In this document: piece by piece, positions 8,295-35,684 of the stretch | Layout: each line of letters starts with the position of its first letter | Numbering within the stretch: position 1 is the stretch's first letter | NCBI RefSeq assembly: GCF_005543295.1 | Contig: NZ_SRSG01000002.1 | Coordinates: forward strand, 1 to 64,000 | Reading direction: 5' to 3' | Length of the DNA: 64,000 bases | Source: Halalkalirubrum salinum | GTDB taxonomy: Archaea; Halobacteriota; Halobacteria; Halobacteriales; Haloferacaceae | Notes under the pieces: model-generated | The model's database searches: none | Seen by the model: only the letters and a program-made list of their open reading frames with translations | What the model was told of the DNA's origin: nothing | Program-made: the position numbers and the translations under genes

Positions 8295-8746
8295 ATGGAC
8301 GTCATCTCCGTGCTGCCGAAGGATGCGATTGCGAGCATCGACGAACCACGGTTCGATCGGCAGTTCGAAGGCACACTCGACGAGACGATTCTCGCCGTCG
8401 AACGCGAGCTGGCGCGGGCGTATCCGATTTTGATTCTCAATTATCACGAGATCGTCAACGACCGCGTTGACGATGAGCCAATCGCGGTCACCTGGTGTCC
8501 GATCTGCGGCAGCGCGGTCGTCTACGAGGCGACTGTCGGCGATGCGGCGCTCACCTTCGGCGTGTCGGGAAAACTCGCCGACGTGCACGTGTTGTACGAT
8601 CGCGAGACCGAACCGGATTGGAAACAGACGAATGGCGAGTGTATCACCGGCGATCTCTTGGGCGAACACCTGACTGTCATACCCGCCGCGATGACGACCG
8701 CTCTCGCGTTCGAAGCACGCTACCCCGAGAGAGTATTTTTACAGCC
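8295..8746 (+). pseudogene. DUF3179 protein, N-terminal part interrupted by cassette
   Basis: This is the front half of a DUF3179 protein. The family core is clear: AVTWCPICGSAVVYEA, GVSGKLADVHVLYDRET, then W-K-Q-T-N-G-E. Full-length relatives are about twice this size. Translation reaches RVFLQP at 8746, where the UspA cassette begins; the following nine codons and stop (8765) belong to the cassette end. The matching C-terminal part resumes at 9400 with LQP in the same sense. The biochemical role of DUF3179 is not known. Confidence 0.85.
8739..8746. repeat. Left copy of 8-bp target duplication (TTACAGCC)
   Basis: TTACAGCC here and TTACAACC at 9400-9407 differ at one base and flank the cassette exactly. 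An 8-bp duplication is the length made by IS6-family transposition. Both copies read L-Q-P in the DUF3179 frame. Confidence 0.75.
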
Positions 8747-9399
8747 GACTCTGTTGAAATATTAAATTGGTGACATTTTCTTGGGTCCATGCTGAATACA
8801 GAGTGCGTACTCGGCACTCGACTACGGTATGCTGGAAAACTGAACTGGACCTGAATCAGCGAACAACAATAACTGTAACCGGGGCACGTCGAACAACGCT
8901 TTCGGCGACGTTCCCTAATAACACGCGGGAGACTCCCTCCCGCCCGCGACTTCCGACAACAATCTCTGACACGTCGTTTTCCTCTGCGAAGGAAACTATT
9001 TTTTTAGAGGGCTTGCCAACGACAGTTTCGATCCGGAATTCGACGCCTTCCGCCTCCAGCATTGGCTTGATCTCCTCGGACACCTCGTTTGTCTTCTCAT
9101 CTTGCACCTCTTTGAGCCGCTCCTGAACGATATCAATCCCCGCCTCGAGCATCCCGTCAGCTACTTCAATGACTCGTAATAGGATGATCTCTTCTCCATC
9201 CGCGGCTTTGACTGCACGATTTACCGCTTTTTGTGCTGCGTTAGATCCGTCGTAGGCCACAAGAATTGCCATACGATCATTCGACACTGGGCAAAAATAA
9301 ATCCCTCTCCCCCACTTGTTTTCAGAACACGACTTTGCTGACTACATACTCTGTATTCAGCAACCTGTACCTATCAATCTCCGAGGTTTCAACAGAGCC
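8747..9399. mobile_element. Transposase-less IS6-like cassette carrying a uspA gene
   Basis: The 653-bp element has inverted ends GACTCTGTTGAAA (8747-8759) and, on the other strand, GGCTCTGTTGAAA (9399-9387), one mismatch in 13. A second inverted block, TGCTGAATACAGAGT, lies 43 bp inside the left end (8790-8804) and 37 bp inside the right end (9348-9362). It interrupts DUF3179 and is flanked by an 8-bp near-perfect target duplication. The only gene inside is a UspA gene with its own TATA-like sequence. No transposase frame is present, so it would move only if an IS6-like transposase acts in trans. It has no CGATCG. Its ends match the cassette at 33893-35650. Confidence 0.8.
8856..9272 (-). 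CDS. Universal stress protein (UspA), cassette passenger
   Basis: A 138-residue single-domain UspA protein starting MAILVAYDGS. The ATP-binding loop is intact: VVGSRGREGVSRVLLGNVA gives G-x2-G-x9-G-N, then VVRRAPVTVIVV, the closing strand. I prefer ATG 9272 over GTG 9287 because an AT-rich TATA-like stretch at 9293-9303 is 21-31 bp upstream, fitting leaderless transcription; the longer start would sit too close. Codons are less GC-rich than neighbouring genes. It is the sole passenger of a transposase-less cassette, so it was probably brought in from elsewhere. Role: nucleotide-binding stress or regulatory protein, partner unknown. Confidence 0.88.
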   Translation of the reverse strand: MAILVAYDGSNAAQKAVNRAVKAADGEEIILLRVIEVADGMLEAGIDIVQERLKEVQDEKTNEVSEEIKPMLEAEGVEFRIETVVGKPSKKIVSFAEENDVSEIVVGSRGREGVSRVLLGNVAESVVRRAPVTVIVVR

Positions 9400-9802
9400 T
9401 TACAACCCAGTCCAGCAGCCGCCGAGCGCCATGGCTACGAACAATCTGGATACGCAGCCTACATCGAGCGTGAGGGTGACGGTTGTTGGTGGGATACGGA
9501 TCGTTGTGCTCGCGACCGACGACGGGATGTATGCCTTCGAACACCCTAGCTTTGGGCTGGCGATCGCGGAAAGAGCGATCCACGGAAACAGCACAACGTG
9601 GGACACCACGACGGCCGAAAGTACTGACGGCCGACAGCTCCATAGGCTTCCTACCCGGCGGCTGTACGCGTTCGCCTGGCGAGACGACCACGGTGAGGGT
9701 GCGTTCTACGGCTACTGCTCGAAATATACCAAATTACAAATGTTTAATGTGCAAGGAGATAACAGATACCGTGAAGGGATTGATTTAGGACCGCCGAAAT
9801 AG
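9400..9802 (+). pseudogene. DUF3179 protein, C-terminal remnant
   Basis: The interrupted gene resumes at the right target duplication. Bases 9400-9465 read LQPSPAAAERHGYEQ and YAAYIEREG in one frame. From about 9476 the next forward frame gives the family's C-terminal segment (VVLATDDGMYAFEHP, TTWDTTTAESTDGR, RRLYAFAWRDDHG) to about 9712, then unrelated residues to a stop at 9802. Relatives have about 50-60 more residues between the two blocks, so an internal deletion with frameshift happened as well as the insertion. This is a decaying gene, not a new short protein. Confidence 0.75.
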
Positions 9803-33592: not shown

Positions 33593-33892
33593 ATAGGCCA
33601 CACAGGATATCAGATGAACTACTCAGCTTCGAGTTCGAGACGTGGAACGTGTTTTGTGCGTGGGGACGGCAGCGTTCTGATCTGTGACAGAACAAAACTG
33701 ACGGAGTTAGAACCGGTCTTCGGACCACAGTAATTATACTAGCGTTCACAATCGTGTTGCCACTGCTGTTCATGAACCACCGGCGCAAACGCTCTTGGAC
33801 CCGATACCGTACGATTTGTTGTACAGGCTGACAACCGCTGCGATACGCTCGCGACTGAGAACGCAATGGCGAACGGTACAGTATGTCAACTT
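33593..33892. other. Spacer left of the serine-hydrolase cassette
   Basis: These 300 bp hold no recognised gene. A 39-codon frame (33614-33733, MNYSASSSRRGTCFV start) has acceptable codons but no family I know. The last eight bases, GTCAACTT (33885-33892), are the left target duplication of the cassette. Confidence 0.5.
33885..33892. repeat. Left copy of perfect 8-bp target duplication (GTCAACTT)
   Basis: GTCAACTT is repeated exactly at 35651-35658, directly outside the other end of the cassette. Eight base pairs is the IS6-family duplication length. Confidence 0.88.
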
Positions 33893-35650
33893 GGCTCTGT
33901 TGAAATCATTTGTTTCTGATATGTCTCAGACTACTGAATATAGAGGTTGTAGTCGGCAGATCGGTACCAGTAGGCTCAAACTATAACAGTAGTGGCATAC
34001 ACCCTCGTATGTTCGAATAACTGGTCGCATACACTCACTACCCAGCGACTTTTTTGAGTTGTAATAATAAGCAGTGGTGTGACGTTCGACAATCTCTCCA
34101 ACAATCGGAGTACGGCAGTTGAGACATTTATTGCGGACTGGCTGACTCAACACCGGATTCCGGGTGCTGCGGTCGCTATCGTTGATGCTGACGGTGACCC
34201 GTCCGTGTCTGCGGAAGGATTCGGTGCTCGAACACTTGAGACCAATACACCGGTCACAGCAGATACTTTGTTCGGGGTTGGGTCGTGCACGAAGCCGTTC
34301 ACGGCAACGGCGATTATGCAACTCGTGGAAGCAGGCGATCTCGCAGTTGATGATCCTGTCTCGGAGTACCTCCCGCATTTGGCGGACGCGCCCGGTGACT
34401 TGATCACAATCGAAGAATTGCTCACTCATACGTCGGGGATGCCCAGTGACGGTGCAGCAGGCCCGCTTATTACTCGGTGGCTTGGCGTCGGCGGTGGAGA
34501 AATCCCGTTGTCGAGTGAGGCTGATTTCCGCCGACACGTGCAGGGTTCGACTGATCGCCGGGTCACTGACCGAGATACGTTCTTTTATTACAACTCCGGG
34601 TACATCATGCTCGGTCAGATTATCGAGCAAATCACCGGTCAAGACTTCTCCACATACGTCGAAGAGGAAATCCTTGCGCCACTAGGGATGGATCGAGCTA
34701 CATTCGATCAGGATGCGTTTGAGGCGGATTCGAATCGCATGACGCCATACATGAAGCAGGAGGGAGCCTCCACGGAGGCTGGGTTCCCGTTTGACCCACT
34801 TATTCACCCGGCTGGAGGACTTATTGCCTCGGTTCGAGACCTCGCCAAATATATGCAAGGCGTGTTTGGAGGGACAGCACTCGGCGCAGACAGGGTCGTT
34901 ACTGCCAAGAGCCTAGAGATGATGACGAAGCACGTCGGAAGCTTGAGTGCGTATTTCGACGGACAGGATCTTGGATATGGGTACGGCTTTATGATGCAGG
35001 AGTTCCTTGACGATCGGTGGATCGGCCATGGTGGCTCTATCGGTGTCTCGACCGCGTGGTTCGGCTACCTTGAGGACGCTGACGTAGGGGTTGCTGTTGC
35101 CTGCACAACCAGTCCAGAGACCCGTCCAATGGATGCTGGGATGGCTGTTATGGGGCTACTTCAGGACAAGACGCCCGAAACAGTCCAACCTCATTATCGG
35201 TTGATGAGCACGCTGGAAGCTGTCACGGGCAAGTACGCAGGGTACCGGAACACTATGGGGGCATCAGTTGAACGAGTCGGTGGCGGACTCAAAATTGAGG
35301 TTGATGGTGCTGTCGGTGGGCAAGAACTATTGCTTACGCCGACACGTATTGAGGACGACCTCCTCGTGTGTACAACAGTCACAGCGGCTGGAATGGAGCG
35401 CGAGATTCGTTTCGAATTCGGTGACGGGAACGTTGATCTCTTCGTTGGTCGGCTTCGCCTTCGGCACGCAGCGTAACACCTCGTCGGGTTGTTTTGCATT
35501 CACAGCCACTAACGGGTGCCACAGGTGACCATGGCATCATTACCTACGTGTGTATCAATAGAACATCAGCTACAGCCTCATTATTCGCAAGAGTCGCGCG
35601 TTGTATTTAGCACACATAATATATCAGATTCTAAGGTTTTCAACATAGCC
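33893..35650. mobile_element. Transposase-less IS6-like cassette carrying a serine hydrolase gene
   Basis: The 1758-bp element begins GGCTCTGTTGAAA (33893-33905) and ends, on the other strand, GGCTATGTTGAAA (35650-35638), one mismatch in 13. Perfect 8-bp duplications GTCAACTT flank it. A subterminal CTGAATATAGAG (33934-33945) at the left and CTAAATACAACG (complement of 35599-35610) at the right correspond in position to the inner repeats of the uspA cassette at 8747. Only one gene lies inside and no transposase is present. CGATCG occurs once in the element, far below the resident level. It landed between convergent glycosyltransferase genes. Confidence 0.85.
34079..35476 (+). CDS. Class C beta-lactamase-family serine hydrolase, cassette passenger
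   Basis: A 465-residue protein starting at GTG 34079. Active-site motifs of the serine beta-lactamase/D-aminopeptidase/esterase group are complete: SxxK as S69-C-T-K72, YxN as Y170-Y-N172 and HGG at 317-319. The first 330 residues are the catalytic domain; about 365-465 is a separate beta-rich C-terminal domain (TGKYAGYRNTMG start) as in Pab87-like peptidases. No signal peptide is visible, so it is probably cytosolic. Archaea lack murein, so peptidase or esterase activity is likelier than a wall role. Codon use and lack of CGATCG point to a foreign origin. Confidence 0.85.
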   Translation: MTFDNLSNNRSTAVETFIADWLTQHRIPGAAVAIVDADGDPSVSAEGFGARTLETNTPVTADTLFGVGSCTKPFTATAIMQLVEAGDLAVDDPVSEYLPHLADAPGDLITIEELLTHTSGMPSDGAAGPLITRWLGVGGGEIPLSSEADFRRHVQGSTDRRVTDRDTFFYYNSGYIMLGQIIEQITGQDFSTYVEEEILAPLGMDRATFDQDAFEADSNRMTPYMKQEGASTEAGFPFDPLIHPAGGLIASVRDLAKYMQGVFGGTALGADRVVTAKSLEMMTKHVGSLSAYFDGQDLGYGYGFMMQEFLDDRWIGHGGSIGVSTAWFGYLEDADVGVAVACTTSPETRPMDAGMAVMGLLQDKTPETVQPHYRLMSTLEAVTGKYAGYRNTMGASVERVGGGLKIEVDGAVGGQELLLTPTRIEDDLLVCTTVTAAGMEREIRFEFGDGNVDLFVGRLRLRHAA

Positions 35651-35684
35651 GTCAACTTATATACTAACTTGGTTTCGAGGATAA

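Follow-up and report, generated by a model that had tools for sequence, protein, structure and literature searches.

The DNA analyzed in this study, referred to below as the window, comprises positions 1 to 64,000 (forward strand) of contig NZ_SRSG01000002.1 of Halalkalirubrum salinum (GCF_005543295.1). On direct reading, an element at 33893-35650 is flanked by the identical 8-bp sequence GTCAACTT at 33885-33892 and at 35651-35658, and its terminal inverted repeats, GGCTCTGTTGAAA (33893-33905, plus strand) and GGCTATGTTGAAA (35638-35650, minus strand), are identical at 12 of 13 positions. These boundaries, ends and exact duplication are as the initial annotation had described them. It had also named a beta-lactamase-family gene as the sole passenger, which was confirmed by the ORF and a profile match, with the active-site motifs intact as SCTK (SxxK), YYN (YxN) and HGG; no transposase was found inside 33893-35650 among the ORFs or by protein comparison. 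The features are as follows.

33885..33892, no strand: target duplication, left copy GTCAACTT, 8 bp (sequence; pair scan)
33893..33922, plus: left end, GGCTCTGTTGAAATCAT followed by a spacer and GATA at end positions 26-29 (sequence; consensus of 100 ends)
33934..33945, plus: subterminal motif CTGAATATAGAG at end position 42 (motif count over 100 ends)
34079..35476, plus: cargo, S12/CubicO-type serine hydrolase of 465 aa with a GTG start and a C-terminal Pab87-type domain (ORF, profile and structure match)
35621..35650, minus: right end, GGCTATGTTGAAAACCT followed by a spacer and GATA at end positions 26-29 (sequence; pair scan; consensus)
35651..35658, no strand: target duplication, right copy GTCAACTT, 8 bp (sequence; pair scan)

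The hydrolase matches the Pfam Beta-lactamase family (1e-65) together with a Pab87 octamerisation domain. The nearest solved structure is 2qmi, entitled 'Pbp related beta-lactamase', which we take to be Pab87 of Pyrococcus, and the alkaline D-peptidase structure 4y7p also matches by sequence (3e-20). The term beta-lactamase should be read here as a family label and not as a demonstrated activity. Homologues of the hydrolase in 28 other genomes were considered as further cassettes and rejected, as paired ends were absent from around all of them; the hydrolase thus looks like an ordinary chromosomal gene that was captured in Halalkalirubrum salinum.

The window also holds a second element of the same type, 653 bp in length, which the initial annotation had missed.

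8739..8746, no strand: left duplication TTACAGCC of the stress-protein cassette (sequence)
8747..9399, no strand: stress-protein cassette, 653 bp, with ends GACTCTGTTGAAA and GGCTCTGTTGAAA (end search; pair scan)
8856..9287, minus: cargo, universal stress protein of up to 143 aa (profile match)
9400..9407, no strand: right duplication TTACAACC, 7/8 identical to the left copy (sequence)

The subterminal motif CTGAATACAGAG is present at both ends of this cassette.

Elements with the same ends in the genome

The whole genome (3.4 Mb in 62 contigs) contains 59 occurrences of the 17-bp end when up to 3 mismatches are allowed, compared with 3 for a reversed control. A pair scan requiring an end match and an 8-bp duplication, applied to the window and 20 further stretches of the same genome, returned 8 elements, and the same end read backwards returned none. 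The ends and duplication of the hydrolase element are not a product of chance. Altogether 12 complete, duplication-flanked elements were found in the genome, and in the stretches scanned the reversed end gave none; the duplication carries a one-base mismatch in four of them (the stress-protein, MazE-PIN and BrkB cassettes and the C12 element). Two of the 12 contain an IS5 transposase, intact on contig C10 and degenerate on C12, and the other ten contain no transposase.

These ten elements differ in their contents, and copies with other passengers, which the initial annotation had proposed as a check, do therefore exist. Two carry serine hydrolases, that of 33893-35650 and a second one on C59 that is 61% identical to it. 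Two others carry toxin-antitoxin genes (DUF7387 with HicA; MazE with PIN) and two encode membrane proteins (a BrkB-family membrane protein; an Rce1-like membrane protease). The remainder comprise the universal stress protein cassette of the window, an AsnC-type regulator with a HalOD1 protein, a secreted-looking protein that has no Pfam match, and a 348-bp MITE-like unit.

Two further loci were noted. On contig C58 (L207:1679-3057), two ends surround two universal-stress-protein-like ORFs with no matching duplication, as in a decayed or composite element. On contig C5 (L201:1-1257), the gene for a serine acetyltransferase is found on the inner side of a single cassette end, the contig being cut off short of the other, so this is a possible further cassette.

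The transposase family of the ends

A full-length insertion sequence with the same ends, anticipated by the initial annotation as an IS6-like element, is indeed present on C10, but it belongs to the IS5 family. This element is 1586 bp long, has cassette-type ends and an exact 8-bp duplication, TCTCATGT, and encodes a 273-aa transposase (NCBIfam IS5_2, 5e-65). An apparent IS5 copy with one end missing, seen in a short stretch (L005), was rejected when the wider stretch (L018) proved to hold a complete 1586-bp element. Other haloarchaea have homologous IS5 transposases (identity mostly 76-86%) enclosed by the same ends and accompanied by duplications; the elements with these ends may belong to the ISH1 subgroup of IS5. 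Among 50 curated elements with cassette ends, IS5 transposase sequence is present in 14 and an IS6 transposase in none. The 8-bp length of the cassette duplication is also that listed for ISH1 (IS5) in PMC10264941.

It is very improbable that an IS6-family transposase moves the cassette, as the initial annotation had supposed. An 8-bp duplication is also made by IS6 elements and is seen with two of them in this genome, and the initial bases GGC(T)nTGTT give IS6 and cassette ends a vague resemblance. However, of the three IS6 transposases in the genome, the two with identifiable ends are bounded by sequences unlike those of the cassettes (GGCACTGTCTAGTT in one case, GGCGGTGTTCAGATAAG/GGTAGTGTTCAGATAAG in the other). 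Because IS5 transposases sit between the cassette ends, the IS6 ends differ and none of the 50 elements holds an IS6 transposase, the cassette ends are IS5-type, and an IS6 mover is already largely refuted.

From the 100 ends of the 50 curated elements we derived the consensus GGCTCTGTTGAAATCCT-N8-GAYA, with GAYA at positions 26-29, in a sample that over-represents canonical ends because most of it was collected by exact matches to 17-18 bp patterns. The subterminal motif occurs within 1 mismatch in 14 of the 100 ends, whereas about 0.1 would be expected from shuffles, and in a subset of ends, among them the left end of the hydrolase element, the motif CTGAATAYAGAG occupies positions 40-48. 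Beyond the terminal block, the subterminal sequences of the C10 IS5 element and the cassettes diverge, so the mover may be another IS5 copy, perhaps since lost from the genome.

Our results make it highly probable that 33893-35650 is a mobile insertion cassette, a chromosomal-type gene within IS5-family ends that lacks a transposase of its own and was most likely moved by an IS5 transposase made elsewhere. We infer the action in trans, the movement of this particular copy and the route by which its cargo was acquired. In such a mechanism, an IS5 transposase produced elsewhere in the cell, where the intact C10 copy exists, would act on the cassette by binding its bipartite ends, consisting of the 17-bp terminal block and GAYA at 26-29. 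It would then excise or copy the unit and join it to AT-rich target sites cut 8 bp apart, and repair of this stagger would give the duplication. Cargo could possibly be gained when IS copies take up an adjacent gene and later drop the transposase. Four IS5 copies (L018, L066, L110 and L151) have an extra ORF beside the transposase, and L125 has a cyclase-like gene with only a 31-aa transposase stub, which suggests a route of capture of this kind. Taken over the genome, at least ten transposase-less units are probably mobilised in trans by an IS5-family transposase encoded elsewhere.

Empty sites and the age of the insertions

Element flanks were joined with one duplication copy and compared with the sister species. 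Clean empty sites with a single target copy were found for six of the 12, at 90-99.5% identity across the junction, with five alignments extending over all 400 bases and one over 352. The six are the MITE, the second serine-hydrolase cassette, IS5, MazE-PIN, BrkB and Rce1-like elements. The empty sites proposed as a check in the initial annotation were thus obtained for siblings but not for the hydrolase element itself, as its site is without a counterpart in the sister species and its flanks match relatives only partially. The case for the movement of the hydrolase element therefore rests on its anatomy and its siblings. In contrast to the six empty sites, the HicA cassette has an identical location in both species, which indicates that the insertions differ in age. 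The siblings, their empty sites and the IS with the same ends bear out the initial view of a transposase-less mobile gene cassette.

Two observations concern the sister species. One is a cassette of 1325 bp (L299:2306-3630), with ATGAATTC exactly duplicated, about 300 bp from the site that the second serine-hydrolase cassette occupies in Halalkalirubrum salinum, and these neighbouring insertions are a possible hot spot. Directly left of the HicA cassette there is an extra insertion of about 1.46 kb (L300:1351-2816), which contains two TnpB-like ORF pieces and is not cassette-type.

An alternate explanation is that the hydrolase gene replaced the transposase of an old IS5-type element long ago and that the unit is now an immobile relic. 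The ends of the hydrolase element differ from the 17-bp consensus at 1 and 2 of 17 positions, so it may be old or inactive; its site is absent in the sister species, so that any recent movement is undatable; and the HicA cassette has kept one site in both species. The target duplication nevertheless remains exact, the hydrolase gene has an intact reading frame, and six siblings either arrived after the two species had diverged or were precisely lost from the sister species, and on balance we regard a dead relic as possible yet rather unlikely.

Short units with cassette ends, 200-400 bp in length, are common and could provide one route of gene capture. It could then be argued that two MITE-like units were inserted independently, one on each side of a resident gene. 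Such insertions would not share a single 8-bp duplication at their outer boundaries, no inner ends or inner duplications are present in 33893-35650, and at the siblings' empty sites both the gene and the ends are missing, which makes this explanation extremely improbable. A single IS5-type cassette unit remains the reading that we prefer.

Known systems and spread across haloarchaea

A mobile insertion cassette (MIC) is defined by inverted repeats on both sides, the lack of a transposase and, usually, a target duplication (PMC3913671). The element 33893-35650 has the inverted repeats, the duplication, a passenger with no transposase and, on C10, a cognate IS with the same ends. MIC231 of Bacillus cereus (IS231, IS4 family) is attributed to Chen 1999 and De Palmenaer 2004 where it is cited in PMC3913671 and PMC2266710. 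The first MIC described, MIC231A1, carries a D-stereospecific endopeptidase and its transposition in trans has been demonstrated (PMC3913671). MIC231 and the haloarchaeal cassettes alike combine inverted IS ends, target duplication, a cargo gene without a transposase and a cognate IS in the genome, and the cargo of MIC231A1 resembles our hydrolase in that the latter matches an alkaline D-peptidase structure by sequence. Unlike MIC231, the cassettes have an archaeal host, IS5-type instead of IS4-type ends and more than 20 unrelated cargo types, and movement in trans, shown for MIC231A1, is here what we infer. As judged from its sequence, the hydrolase cassette appears to work like MIC231 and agrees with the anatomical definition of a MIC, in a new host lineage and a new IS family.

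Haloarchaeal MITEs (Haloquadratum, Halobacterium; PMC3119063, PMC10264941) likewise have no transposase, canonical IS-like ends, a duplication and presumed mobilisation in trans. In Haloquadratum, four of five MITE families lack coding sequence and stay below 500 bp (PMC3119063), whereas the cassettes are up to 2.2 kb long and contain recognisable genes. The name transporter IS, or tIS, is used for insertion sequences that bring along passenger genes (PMC3129680, PMC7986276), with only one listed for the IS6 family, ISDsp3 (PMC7986276). The four IS5 copies with an extra ORF are tIS-like; the hydrolase element differs in being without a transposase.

Exact ends were found in 67 of 146 genomes across the order, with none for the reversed control among the matches listed, and close or distant relatives of the transposase in 114 of the 146. 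Several bacterial and methanogen matches to the 18-mer end were rejected, as the mate was missing and they look like chance or coding matches. In many pairs of elements with different cargo, the ends share 75-96% identity over 50-85 bp. In a set of 24 elements that lack a transposase and measure 500 bp or more, the longest ORFs, which in small cassettes may not all be genes, are mutually unrelated except for the two serine hydrolases. Among the other cargo are an FMN-dependent enzyme, an AstE/AspA-type hydrolase, a sodium/bile-acid-type transporter and acetyltransferases. Viral contigs gave seven end matches and only one element with a duplication, a 916-bp element with exact duplication TGGTACTC and an HNH-like ORF (L256:9928-10843, on a contig listed as viral, IMGVR_UViG_2554235474_000003). 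Cassettes may thus ride on viruses or proviruses.

Integron gene cassettes are single-gene units with conserved ends and very diverse cargo, including toxin-antitoxin pairs. The haloarchaeal cassettes share these properties, but they have no attC sites, integrase or arrays; their insertions are dispersed and show 8-bp duplications and DDE-transposase ends. No gene-carrying cassettes of this type in archaea are described in the open-access papers searched, and since the search covered open access only, their novelty is provisional.

Whether single-gene cassettes form an economy that spans the haloarchaeal order, in which IS5 transposases move them in trans and their cargo is swapped freely between conserved ends of 50-80 bp, we consider evenly balanced. 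If true, it would be a functional counterpart of integron cassettes without the integron, with enzymes, regulators, stress proteins, toxin-antitoxin pairs and transporters as cargo. Haloarchaea exchange genes horizontally on a large scale, but few one-gene mobile units have been described in them; since the cassettes are probably moved by an IS5 transposase encoded elsewhere, single genes could spread in this way. Because the ends are recognisable, cassette cargo can be catalogued across genomes, and mobilisation in trans is directly testable in genetically tractable haloarchaea.
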